Under the pieces are notes generated by a model. The model was not told where the DNA came from, ran no database searches, and was given only the letters and a program-made list of their open reading frames with translations. Source: Gracilibacillus ureilyticus (GTDB lineage Bacteria; Bacillota; Bacilli; Bacillales; Amphibacillaceae). From it: 64,000 bases of DNA. The stretch spans positions 102,510-166,509 of the forward strand of contig NZ_FOGL01000006.1 of assembly GCF_900111195.1 (NCBI RefSeq), in the 5' to 3' direction. This document shows positions 3,491-52,394 of the stretch, one piece after another (positions within the stretch are counted from its first letter, which is position 1; each line of letters starts with the position of its first letter). Made by a program: the position numbers and the translations under genes.

Positions 3491-3598
3491 CTCTTATCTC
3501 TCAAAGCATCTGCTTTGTTGGAATTAGCACCTTTCAGATATAATCTGACGGTTGCCGGGTTTCATAGGGCCAGTCCCTCCACCTCTCTTGATAAGAGT
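3491..3598 (-). promoter_or_regulatory. SAM riboswitch (S-box, SAM-I) leader of metNIQ
   Basis: On the minus strand this region carries the SAM-I core: a P1 helix (CTCTTATC with GATAAGAG), the GGTGGAGGGACTGGCCC element, ATGAAACCCGGCAACC and GGTGCTAATTCC. This order and these conserved strings are diagnostic of the S-box. With SAM bound, P1 is held closed and the terminator at 3436-3472 forms; without SAM, the P1 3' strand AAGAGGAC is free to pair with GTCCTCTT inside the terminator. Confidence 0.97.
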
Positions 3599-50326: not shown

Positions 50327-51016
50327 TTAAAATAAAATTTTGAGTACAAGGGGTGCAATTAATGATACGAGAACTGCACTAATTGTCATTGATAGAGCAC
50401 TCACTGCACCAGCCAGTTCACTGTCTTCCAGTGCTTTCGCTGTCCCTATAGCGTGTGAGGCTGTTCCAATTCCTAATCCTTTTGCAACAGGGTGATTCAC
50501 ACGGCCTGCCCTCCACATCATGGGAGCAAACATGGCCCCACTTATTCCGGCGATCATTACAAATATAGCTGCCAAAGACATACTGCCGCCAGTTGCATCA
50601 GTAATGCTTAATGCAACAGGTGTTGTCACAGATTTTGGTGCCACTGCAGCAATAACTGATTCCCCAAAACCTAATGATAATGTAAGCAGCACCCCGCTCA
50701 GGACGCCGATAAATGATCCGGTAAGAATGCCGGTAAAGATTACAAGCGCATATTTTTTAATTAAATATCTCTGCCTGTATAGTGGCAAAGCAAGAGCAAC
50801 AACTAGTGGGCCTAAGAAGTGATTTATCCATTGACCGCCATACATATATACAGAATAGGGAATATCAAATAAATATAAAAAGATAATAATACTAAGTGAT
50901 GTGATAATAATTGGTAAAGTAAATGGAGATGGGATTATACTGTATAATTTTTTGCTAATAAAATAAAAAAATACTGTCAGGATAAGAAACCCAATACCAT
51001 AAAGATATGGAACCAT
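50327..51016 (-). CDS. LrgB/CidB family membrane protein
   Basis: This 229-residue polytopic protein of the LrgB family (PF04172) has about eight hydrophobic segments and the signature VIAAVAPKSVTTPVALSI with GLGIGTASHAIGTAKA. Its start overlaps the LrgA stop by one base (TAATG), indicating coupling. LrgAB/CidAB-type pairs act as holin/antiholin-like proteins or pyruvate transporters (YsbAB/PftAB in B. subtilis). Which of these applies here cannot be told. Confidence 0.88.
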   Translation of the reverse strand: MVPYLYGIGFLILTVFFYFISKKLYSIIPSPFTLPIIITSLSIIIFLYLFDIPYSVYMYGGQWINHFLGPLVVALALPLYRQRYLIKKYALVIFTGILTGSFIGVLSGVLLTLSLGFGESVIAAVAPKSVTTPVALSITDATGGSMSLAAIFVMIAGISGAMFAPMMWRAGRVNHPVAKGLGIGTASHAIGTAKALEDSELAGAVSALSMTISAVLVSLIAPLVLKILF

Positions 51017-51381
51017 TATATATCCGCCTCTTTCTCAAGCAGTTTTCCTGCTATAAAGCTAGTCGTAAATATGACGAGCAAAGTACTTAGAAAAGCCGCC
51101 AGCAAAATCAAACTCCCTTTTCCTCTGAAAAAATCAAAAAATTCTATAACCCCGACAGTCACTGGAACAAAAAATAATGGCATATCTTTTATTAACAGAT
51201 CAATGCCATTACTAATTATCCTTTCAGGTATTATGTTAGTTAGTAACAAAACAAAAAACAGCAGCATTCCAATGATGCTGCCGGGAATCGTTAAGTTTAA
51301 TACTGACTGAATATATTCCCCTAAATGATAAAAAATAAAAAGCAGCGAAATCTGTAACAAGATGTAAATAATTTTTTTCAT
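51016..51381 (-). CDS. LrgA/CidA family membrane protein
   Basis: This 121-residue protein has four hydrophobic segments and the CidA/LrgA signature PGSIIGMLLFFVLLLTN with IKDMPLFFVPVTVGVIEF. GGAGG eight bases upstream selects the ATG at 51381. It is cotranscribed with the downstream lrgB-like gene. No LytTR or LysR regulator is adjacent. Confidence 0.88.
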   Translation of the reverse strand: MKKIIYILLQISLLFIFYHLGEYIQSVLNLTIPGSIIGMLLFFVLLLTNIIPERIISNGIDLLIKDMPLFFVPVTVGVIEFFDFFRGKGSLILLAAFLSTLLVIFTTSFIAGKLLEKEADI

Positions 51382-51466
51382 TGATAAAGCCTCCAAAATA
51401 AGAAAAACCTAAACGATTCTTAGCACTATACAATAGTACAACAAATTCGTTTAGGTGACAAAGTAT

Positions 51467-52018
51467 TCAGATTGCTTCTTCGCCTTCTTTTAATGTTTCC
51501 TGATGAGCGAAGTAACAATCGCGTGTAATCACATAAAGATCATAAATCGGATCTTCTAATGAACATTGATTTACTTTATCATATATTTGTGGATAACTCT
51601 CATTAGCGTACATAACATAAGGTACTTTAAGAATAGCCTTGGAAGAACGGTAATTAGTTTTCCTTATTTTAATAAAAATCGCTTCAATAGAGTGTTCATA
51701 GAACAGTTCACTAAAGAACGCATCTTTTGCCAGTTTGTTGTAACCTTTACCGAAATACGGCTGACCAATCCATGTAGCAAGAAAACCTGCCCCGTTTTCA
51801 ATATCAAAAAGGTTGATTGTTCCTATCGGATTATACCATTCATCCAGGATTGTACGAGAGATCAGTTCCCCATTATCTTCCGCTTCCATCGTTTTCCTTG
51901 TAAGAAAGTAAAATTCATCACTTGAATTTGCCTTATGTCTTACATATGGGAAAACTTCAGGATGTATCATCAATTCATATAAAGCCGGTGCGTCTTGTAA
52001 TTCTCTTTTTTTAAGCAT
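51467..52018 (-). CDS. GNAT family N-acetyltransferase with structured leader
   Basis: This 183-residue protein has the RimJ/RimL-like GNAT layout: RELQDAPALYELMIHPEVFPYVR at the start, ISRTILDEWYNPIGTINLFD, the acetyl-CoA loop in WIGQPYFGKGYNKLAKDAFF (QxxxGKG) and KIRKTNYRSSKAILK. The substrate is unknown. The ATG lies directly after a run of T residues that follows GGAGGG; that Shine-Dalgarno sequence is the 3' arm of a terminator hairpin. The gene is therefore switched by the leader at 52019-52222. Its C-terminus is acidic (KEGEEAI). Confidence 0.85.
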   Translation of the reverse strand: MLKKRELQDAPALYELMIHPEVFPYVRHKANSSDEFYFLTRKTMEAEDNGELISRTILDEWYNPIGTINLFDIENGAGFLATWIGQPYFGKGYNKLAKDAFFSELFYEHSIEAIFIKIRKTNYRSSKAILKVPYVMYANESYPQIYDKVNQCSLEDPIYDLYVITRDCYFAHQETLKEGEEAI

Positions 52019-52045
52019 AAAAAATCCCTCCTAAATGATGGAGGG
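52019..52045 (-). terminator. Terminator hairpin that sequesters the GNAT ribosome binding site
   Basis: On the minus strand CCCTCC (52040-52045), an 8-nt loop and GGAGGG (52026-52031) are followed by six T residues and then the start codon at 52018. The hairpin can stop transcription, and it hides the Shine-Dalgarno sequence if transcribed through. Confidence 0.75.
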
Positions 52046-52222
52046 TGTCATGGAAGAAGACAGGGTAACCCCTAGTAGTATGTTCCATCCACCCTCGAAT
52101 TTTTATCAAAAAGCCACAAAAATTCGGGGTGGGAATCGAACCCACTAGAACCAGCTCTTACAGCTGGTGGCGCACCATTTGCCTTCCCTCCATGTCGACA
52201 ACTTATCGTCTCGAAAAAATCT
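52046..52222 (-). ncRNA. tRNA-like switching leader RNA of the GNAT gene
   Basis: Minus strand. A small hairpin (GACGA/TTGTC, 52210-52197) is followed by a tRNA-like cloverleaf. Its parts are three acceptor pairs (GGG 52188-52186 with CCC 52128-52126), a D arm (GGC, 9-nt loop with GG, GCC; 52183-52169), an anticodon-like arm (CCAGC, TGTAAGA, GCTGG; 52167-52151), a 5-nt variable loop and a T arm (GTGGG, TTCGATT, CCCAC; 52145-52129). The T-arm 3' strand can instead pair with 52104-52089 in a 15-bp helix. That partner can in turn pair with 52055-52041 (GAGGGTG-ATGGAA with TTCCAT-CACCCTC), which would free the ribosome binding site. I do not recognise this RNA class. Confidence 0.6.
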
Positions 52223-52228
52223 ATTCTT

Positions 52229-52258
52229 ATCTTACACAATTAATGTATATGTTGTAAA
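52229..52258 (-). promoter_or_regulatory. Candidate promoter of the tRNA-like leader
   Basis: TTTACA (52253-52258), an 18-bp spacer and TAAGAT (52229-52234) on the minus strand would start transcription near 52222, just before the leader's first hairpin. The remaining gap up to 52394 is AT-rich without further features. Confidence 0.5.
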
Positions 52259-52394
52259 TAGATTTTTGTTAAAAAATAAGAAAAAAATCAACGTAACTGG
52301 AAGAAATATTAAGAAAAATTAATATATACTTGATTAAATTAACAATACGTTATAATTTGATTGAAAATGAGCTATTATGACATAATATTCGTAA

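Follow-up and report, generated by a model that had tools for sequence, protein, structure and literature searches.

A predicted tRNA-like regulatory leader with a relay of exclusive helices in front of a GNAT-family gene in Bacillales

Introduction

The azaaromatic (yjdF) riboswitch (RF01764), a published tRNA-like ON switch (PMC9142559, available in excerpts), is the nearest known system to the RNA described here, a structured mRNA leader in front of a GNAT-family acetyltransferase gene of Gracilibacillus ureilyticus. The excerpts report that the yjdF RNA folds like tRNA and binds a small molecule in an A-rich pocket at its four-way junction, and that activating ligands stabilize the elbow (PMC9142559). 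Its T-arm side is otherwise engaged in pairing with the Shine-Dalgarno sequence, and tRNA-like leaders raise translation (PMC9142559). The ON logic was predicted in PMC4793209, likewise available in excerpts. A tRNA-like switch within an mRNA is, given yjdF, not unprecedented as such.

The leader studied here occupies positions 52188-52019 on the minus strand of the window, by which we mean the whole analysed stretch of 64,000 nucleotides (nt) (contig NZ_FOGL01000006.1, positions 102,510 to 166,509, assembly GCF_900111195.1). An initial annotation, made from the letters alone, had described it as a tRNA mimic with a chain of mutually exclusive helices that controls the GNAT gene, and all strands that it named were found on the minus strand where it had placed them. 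Handles with L and G below denote loci and genomes, respectively.

Structure of the leader

The elements of the leader and of the gene behind it are as follows, where alignment refers to 65 dereplicated homologous leaders.

52229-52258, minus strand: promoter-like site TTTACA-18-TAAGAT, 5' of the leader (consensus match 9 of 12)
52186-52188, minus strand: 5' strand GGG of the acceptor-like stem, partner 52128-52126 (sequence, folding, alignment)
52184-52185, minus strand: junction AA from acceptor to D stem (identical in 65 of 65 aligned leaders)
52169-52183, minus strand: D-arm-like hairpin GGC-AAATGGTGC-GCC with GG in the loop (sequence, folding, alignment)
52150-52168, minus strand: anticodon-like arm, species-variable in sequence and length, with compensatory changes that keep the stem
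52146-52149, minus strand: variable-loop-like segment TCTA, its final TA identical in 65 of 65
52129-52145, minus strand: T-arm GTGGG-TTCGATT-CCCAC with a canonical T loop, its 3' strand being the switching strand (sequence, folding, alignment)
52126-52128, minus strand: 3' strand CCC of the acceptor-like stem (sequence, alignment)
52097-52125, minus strand: lower hairpin of helix P2, GAATTTTT...AAAAATTC (two-sided changes in 7 of 8 pairs)
52089-52132, minus strand: P2 extended, CCACCC 52132-52127 with GGGTGG 52094-52089, which excludes the T-arm and the acceptor (folding)
52089-52096, minus strand: G-arm GAGGGTGG, the relay strand common to P2 extended and P3 (comparison)
52041-52096, minus strand: P3, predicted anti-sequester or anti-terminator helix, GAGGGTG (from 52096) with CACCCTC 52047-52041 (comparison, folding)
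52026-52045, minus strand: P4, CCCTCC-ATCATTTA-GGAGGG, which sequesters the Shine-Dalgarno sequence and is terminator-like with the six T residues (comparison)
52026-52031, minus strand: Shine-Dalgarno sequence GGAGGG of the GNAT gene (sequence)
52019-52024, minus strand: run of six T residues between P4 and the start codon (sequence)
51467-52018, minus strand: GNAT-family acetyltransferase gene, 183 amino acids, Pfam PF13302, the only gene type found behind the leader

The promoter-like site is weak, because seven such sites were observed in the stretch where 2.4 are expected. Positions 52204-52119 fold unconstrained into a cloverleaf with a 3-base pair (bp) acceptor, a 3-bp D stem, the anticodon-like arm and a 5-bp T arm, and together with the window sequence this bears out the cloverleaf core with T loop TTCGATT and D-loop GG that had been read initially. 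The further pairings of that reading are likewise present, namely a 15-bp alternative helix (52132-52118 with 52104-52089, one bulged A), the pairing of 52096-52083 with 52055-52041, and a terminator-like CCCTCC/GGAGGG hairpin followed by the six T residues before the ATG. Taken as a whole, the leader greatly exceeds shuffled sequences in stability (z-score -7.0, 0 of 200 shuffles as stable), and its preferred fold consists of the alternative helices. In the window it also has the layout of an attenuator with an intrinsic terminator, as a GC-rich hairpin with a T-run is excluded by an upstream helix.

Conservation and covariation

All 30 loci returned by a search with the GNAT protein carry the leader, and 28 of these leaders were used to build a covariance model, R1, with L009 and L029 left out of the alignment. 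Altogether 211 leader instances were collected, of which 186 are distinct; counts over 182 or 210 leaders given below include near-duplicates. Dereplication reduced 210 leaders to 65, the remaining instance (L154) being too short. Protein or covariance searches contributed 36 of the 65, and the other 29 came from a DNA pattern that fixes many D- and T-arm bases.

In the alignment of the 65 leaders, 98.1% of the paired cells hold standard pairs and 13 of the 25 pairs show two-sided changes. Covariation amounted to 0.201, compared with 0.066 in shuffles (0 of 500 as high) and 0.045 in the best slid version, and each of five alignment measures lay above 500 shuffles and the slid versions; these shuffle controls ignore relatedness. 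Two-sided changes were seen in 7 of 8 pairs of the lower P2 stem, 4 of 6 of the anticodon-like arm and 2 of 5 of the T stem, so that by sequence comparison the lower P2 stem is the best-supported helix. Compensations in the T stem read GTAGG/CCTAC (L091, L095) and ATGGG/CCCAT (L004, L078).

The D-loop GG and the T-loop TTCGATT are identical in all 65 leaders, including the 36 whose discovery did not depend on a pattern with these bases fixed. The D-loop AA[A/T]TGGTG and the junction bases AA and TA are identical or nearly so throughout. The A/T position of the D loop co-varies with a variable-loop base (A-T in 44 and T-C in 9 of the 65; 0 of 200 shuffles as high, relatedness uncontrolled), which would be consistent with a possible tertiary contact. 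The anticodon-like arm ranges from 11 to 22 nt over the 65 leaders, and its stem and 7-nt loop vary freely. An anticodon-like arm was thus rightly recognized at the outset, but its exact shape of a 5-bp stem with a 7-nt loop is not a feature of the family, and the G at position 33, which had been taken as a mark against a usable tRNA, carries no information because the arm is free to vary. Across homologues the D- and T-arm motifs are kept and the alternative pairings largely so, an outcome that favours the initial annotation.

Distribution and link to the GNAT gene

At E≤0.01, R1 has matches in 333 of the 397 genomes searched from the order, of which 304 (counted by eye) reach E≤1e-10; the other 29 (E 1e-4 to 0.01) are presumed to be plain tRNAs. 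Within the family 97 of 159 genomes are matched at E≤1e-7, and a match at E≤1e-6 was obtained in 22 of 299 genomes at class level and in 4 of 299 at phylum level. A structured leader this common is absent from Rfam 15, perhaps because it resembles a damaged tRNA. Scanning named genomes with the DNA pattern gave at least 120 stretches, and among the matches listed are Gracilibacillus, Halobacillus, Oceanobacillus, Priestia megaterium, Geobacillus, Bacillus paralicheniformis, Neobacillus, Psychrobacillus and Paenisporosarcina. One leader copy was found in the genome of G. ureilyticus itself. A mobile element was rejected as an explanation, with no match obtained in phages or in the viral contigs searched with the leader pattern. 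A single plasmid copy was observed, in which the pair of leader and GNAT gene lies on a 690-kb plasmid of Cytobacillus spongiae (NZ_CP089998.1, 647298-647402; L253).

The GNAT gene follows within 1200 nt in 210 of the 211 leader copies. Among copies found independently of the GNAT protein the same gene is preceded by the leader in 180 of 181 (166 distinct leader sequences), the exception being L154, where the locus ends 131 nt past the motif. Conversely, GNAT protein matches occur in 123 of the 159 family genomes, 100 of them at E≤1e-40. With this threshold, RNA and GNAT occur together in 96 genomes, the RNA alone in one and the GNAT alone in four. The genome with the RNA alone is G143 (L216), where by eye an insertion-sequence-like end follows right after the Shine-Dalgarno sequence and the contig ends with no GNAT seen. 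In the class the protein was detected at E≤1e-30 in 76 of 299 genomes versus 22 for the RNA. GNAT orthologues thus extend beyond the range of the RNA, and the leader therefore seems to have been gained by, or lost from, an older gene.

The relay of helices and its polarity

Behind P2 come, in order, GAGGGUGG, a variable loop, a C-rich segment (CACCCUC, CUGCCCUC or a related sequence) and, after a short spacer, GGAGGG. This order offers three exclusive choices. The 3' side of the T-arm and acceptor pairs either within the cloverleaf or with GAGGGUGG; GAGGGUGG pairs either with that 3' side or with YRCCCUC; and CCCUC pairs either with GAGGGUGG or with the Shine-Dalgarno sequence GGAGGG. The relay could be scored in 182 of the 210 leaders and in a folding set of 50 of the 65 dereplicated ones. 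The G-arm and the Shine-Dalgarno sequence have the same C-rich strand as their best partner (shared by at least 3 nt) in 149 of 182 leaders and 39 of 50 after dereplication, and P3 and P4 jointly reached a frequency of at most 0.05 in dinucleotide shuffles of the intervening sequence in 153 of 182 and 41 of 50. The helices, their mutual exclusion and the link to one gene are established by these sequence comparisons, which uphold the helix chain tied to the GNAT gene that the initial annotation had proposed.

Minimum-energy folding of the growing window transcript gave the cloverleaf first; it was lost as the G-arm emerged, and P4 appeared once the Shine-Dalgarno sequence had emerged. Folding at two lengths gave the same order in relatives, with the T-stem intact before transcription of the relay arm in 45 of 50 leaders and lost in 48 of 50 complete leaders; the Shine-Dalgarno sequence was then paired in 47 of the 50. 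When the cloverleaf was enforced, P3 was restored in 45 of 50.

We consider it likely that the leader is a cis-regulatory RNA switch in which a held cloverleaf turns the GNAT gene on. A tRNA-like cloverleaf whose D-loop and T-loop form an elbow would be the first fold of the nascent leader. When a trigger is present and the cloverleaf is held, the G-rich relay arm would stay off the T-arm and pair downstream with YRCCCUC to form P3, CCCUC could then not pair with the Shine-Dalgarno sequence in P4, and the GNAT gene would be on. Without such a hold, the relay arm would invade the strand of T-arm and acceptor and extend P2, whereby P3 would be lost and P4 would form. The off state would hide the Shine-Dalgarno sequence and, with a T-run as in the window, probably cause termination too. 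A terminator-like hairpin is present in the window with its six T residues, but most scored relatives lack the terminator part, since a T-run directly follows P4 in only 70 of the 182 scored leaders; in the others P4 would therefore act on translation by hiding the Shine-Dalgarno sequence.

Both switching and its polarity are inferred, and two natural minimal variants point to the polarity. L072 (G275) has neither P3 nor P4, and its relay arm GAGGGGGG doubles as the Shine-Dalgarno sequence, 7 nt before the ATG; a formed cloverleaf meaning ON is therefore the only polarity that fits. In L221 (G109) the exclusion is kept without the lower P2 stem, as CCCACCC faces GAGGGTG across a short loop, an arrangement that would also fit a formed cloverleaf as the ON state. 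The polarity assumed in the initial annotation is supported by this argument.

Several observations weigh against the switch as proposed. On energy alone the cloverleaf stretch of the window does not stand out from shuffled sequences (z-score -0.7, 46 of 200 shuffles as good), and over the 50 leaders the cloverleaf is a median of 8.2 kcal/mol (range 0.8-19.3) less stable than the free fold, with tertiary contacts not counted. The verdict that the leader is more than chance thus comes from its conservation in homologues. The D stem and the acceptor hardly vary across the 65 leaders, so that neither gains support from covariation. Strict overlap of P3 and P4 is absent in 33 of 182 leaders, and 28 of 210 were unscorable. 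With the cloverleaf enforced, at least 4 of the 6 Shine-Dalgarno bases were still paired elsewhere in 28 of 50 leaders, and the energy model therefore gives no clean release. In L085, L086, L088 and L131 the relay arm is not recognizable, which leaves the platform unexplained there. The GNAT gene also occurs without the RNA in four family genomes (G017, G112, G115 and G116), and a further reading and search to E 5 of the regions upstream of 17 GNAT genes, all in genomes that R1 does not match (16 of other class groups, one of the order), gave no leader.

The GNAT protein, its neighbourhood and other leaders

All 51 GNAT members contain PF13302. The structure model of the protein (predicted local distance difference test, pLDDT, 92.6; predicted template modelling score, pTM, 0.87) has the common RimL/SpeG/FdhC fold. 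In the fold comparison FdhC, SpeG, RimL and PseH lie within 1.1 Z units of each other and SpeG structures rank high, so that, as modelled, the fold is generic among the compared families. A profile search against solved sequences placed MccE first (E 9.7e-8), which we take to be the self-immunity acetyltransferase against microcin C, followed by RimJ/RimL-type and SpeG chains; a single-sequence search for solved GNAT relatives gave a best hit of only E 0.38. NF040702 (isoleucyl-tRNA synthetase with a GNAT domain) was weakly matched by 38 of the 51 proteins (best 6.5e-9), and PADLOC gave no defence match. A variable linker followed by a terminal -EA (LKEA, LLEA and others) closes 132 of 194 GNAT proteins, which suggests a conserved C-terminal tail.

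Neighbouring genes are not conserved. The next gene is on the same strand in 90 of 180 loci and within 100 nt in 32 of 180. An LrgA/LrgB-like pair lies directly 3' of the GNAT gene in the window (50327-51396, minus strand), and an LrgA-like gene follows the GNAT gene in 18 of 180 loci. In the window the pair of leader and GNAT gene stands behind a TIGR01777 gene, presumably yfhF-like, and the sequence points to the same arrangement in B. paralicheniformis.

Some GNAT orthologues carry other leaders. In G115 and G116 an M-box Mg2+ riboswitch lies 5' of the GNAT homologue instead (141.2 and 140 bits), a possible leader swap. The M-box copies (L262 3478-3645, minus strand; L263 2936-3102, plus strand) are followed by an open reading frame of about 35 codons, seen by eye, and then by the GNAT gene. 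Three large genomes of family f48 (L239, L240, L241) share a different short leader, approximately CCTTTTGTATACTTAGTTTGCTTGA...AGCGAA...AAAGGACTAGGTGG, just before the GNAT start codon, with no Rfam match up to E 0.5. The orthologues at L236-L238 (family f179) share another one, approximately CAGCCAAGGC...GTTCGAAC...GCTTTCGTTAC, which neither Rfam (up to E 0.5) nor R1 matches. The GNAT leaders of L245 and L252 (family f49, genus g453), which R1 does not match, include GGGTTTGAATTCCTGCACGAATTTTAGTT or a close variant of it; by eye this resembles a degenerate remnant of the T-arm and P2. Elsewhere in the window a SAM (S-adenosylmethionine, S-box) riboswitch (RF00162, 100 bits) is found at 3491-3597, minus strand.

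What could hold the cloverleaf

The leader offers a handle on an uncharacterized, widely kept GNAT, as whatever holds the cloverleaf should point to its substrate or cue. We tentatively favour, at slightly less than an even chance, a small-molecule riboswitch, in which the A-containing four-way junction would bind a compound that the GNAT acetylates, as yjdF binds azaaromatics; candidates would be an antimicrobial, an aminoacyl-nucleotide or a polyamine. The junction and D-loop bases AA, AA[A/T] and TA are not typical of tRNA and are nearly identical in the 65 leaders, as in a binding pocket, the leader serves a single gene of a detoxification-prone fold, and MccE (E 9.7e-8) and SpeG lead or rank high in the profile and fold comparisons. 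The A-rich junction pocket of yjdF with the same ON logic points the same way (PMC9142559, excerpts). A sensor of a tRNA-binding enzyme, the ribosome or the GNAT protein, as the initial annotation had it, is possible and found no support, the closest system using a small molecule (PMC9142559, excerpts). We regard such a holder, be it a protein that binds the tRNA elbow (the GNAT itself or a tRNA-modifying enzyme) or the ribosome, as rather unlikely. In its favour, no part of the leader resembles tRNA more than the elbow (D-loop GG, TTCGATT, T-stem), which is almost invariant, ARAGORN calls one of 51 leaders a tRNA, and in the excerpts of PMC9142559 tRNA-like leaders raise translation and the liganded yjdF aptamer binds ribosomes in vitro. 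The match of 38 of 51 GNATs to NF040702 would agree with it as well, but may be general GNAT similarity; GNAT orthologues of other class groups do without the leader, and binding by the GNAT would mean positive feedback.

Physical cues were weighed too. Folding of tRNA is cation dependent, and Mg2+, bulk polyamines or temperature might act on the stability of the tRNA-like tertiary fold. The M-box in front of the GNAT homologue in G115 and G116 means that GNAT expression can be tied to Mg2+. The M-box, however, turns genes on at low Mg2+, whereas Mg2+ would favour the cloverleaf; a short open reading frame stands between M-box and GNAT, and the junction bases are conserved beyond what mere stability needs, which makes a physical sensor unlikely in our view. 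Very improbable is a translation-coupled attenuator, in which ribosomes starting at the D-loop [A/T]TG (after GGGAAGG) would disturb the cloverleaf. Of the 210 leaders, 186 have ATG and 24 TTG as the D-loop triplet, the selecting pattern having allowed only A or T there, and in 127 of the 210 the frame of this triplet reaches a stop ahead of the T-arm, compared with 89 and 86 for the other frames. Thinning of relatives reduces this excess (36 of 65 versus 28 and 28), and 29 of 65 frames run past the T-arm in changing frames with no kept peptide or stop position. An upstream open reading frame in the D-loop was rejected, as the excess of early stops is mild and no frame is kept. Ions, bulk polyamines, temperature and translation coupling together account for only about a quarter of our expectation for the trigger. 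In its most specific form, and as a joint reading to which we give a real but less than even chance, the leader would be a second tRNA-cloverleaf riboswitch class, independent of yjdF, in which a junction ligand (a polyamine, or an aminoacyl-nucleotide-like or cationic antimicrobial acetylated by the GNAT) locks the elbow and a three-helix relay turns on a disposal gene in hundreds of Bacillales species.

Comparison with known RNAs

Rfam 15 gave no match at gathering score on the window leader or in 20 homologous loci, so that no family covers the leader at that level; weak matches up to E 10 include nse_sRNA and tRNA-Sec, both far below cutoff. Open-access literature searches returned no description of the leader, and the accessible text of PMC11109978 and PMC8632094, searched by term, returned nothing.

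With tRNA (RF00005) and tRNA-Sec (RF01852) the leader shares the order of the cloverleaf, the T loop TTCGATT and the D-loop GG, and the bases of the tRNA elbow (D-loop GG, T-loop TTC-R-A) are found in 65 of 65 aligned leaders. It differs from them in its 3-bp instead of 7-bp acceptor, the lack of a CCA end, an anticodon arm of variable length and a junction unlike that of tRNA, and the tRNA-Sec model gave 21.6 bits on the leader against a cutoff of 47. That it is not a usable tRNA, as first read, agrees with ARAGORN, which calls none in the window, and with Rfam, which has no tRNA match at gathering score. Across 51 whole homologous loci ARAGORN called one leader a tRNA-Tyr with anticodon gta (L030, 2119-2188, minus strand) and did not call the other 50, and automatic annotation may thus list some such leaders as tRNAs. 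An ordinary tRNA or tRNA pseudogene was rejected on Rfam, ARAGORN (L030 excepted), the compensatory changes and the single downstream gene. The transfer-messenger RNA (tmRNA) of the same genome (L212) has an identical T-arm, GTGGGTTCGATTCCCAC, a comparison limited to the T-arm, and this identity probably reflects shared use of a canonical T-arm. Like the T-box (RF00230) the leader is a Firmicute leader with a choice of helices at its end, but here the mRNA itself is the tRNA-like part; a T-box was rejected, as the window holds no gathering match and the leader none to E 10.

The yjdF riboswitch shares more. Both RNAs have a four-way junction, a D-loop/T-loop elbow, an A-rich junction and a folded state that is ON, and in both, formation of the T-arm is opposed by a pairing in which the Shine-Dalgarno sequence is hidden, as judged here from comparison and folding. 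In yjdF, however, the T-arm pairs directly with the Shine-Dalgarno sequence, whereas here the relay P2, P3, P4 lies between them. The yjdF Rfam model also has an 8-bp P1 and a long purine-rich junction J1/2, in contrast to a 3-bp acceptor and AA in the leader, and the sequences differ. RF01764 gave no match at its 45-bit gathering score, none to E 10 on 51980-52300 and none in 20 homologous loci. In turn, R1 gave no same-strand match to the aptamer in eight yjdF loci to E 10 with filters off; one overlap lay on the opposite strand (L259, 6.4 bits). Both RNAs occur in six of eight RF01764 genomes (G197, G215, G216, G236, G261, G266). Since neither model matches the other RNA and six genomes carry both, the leader is not a member of RF01764.

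The homologue comparison argues for a real, widespread tRNA-like regulatory leader, the predicted mechanism of which is well supported. It is an RNA class absent from Rfam 15 and from the open-access text searched, with yjdF as the nearest in kind, and the tRNA fold would thereby serve a second time as an mRNA switch, here in a clean strand-relay design.
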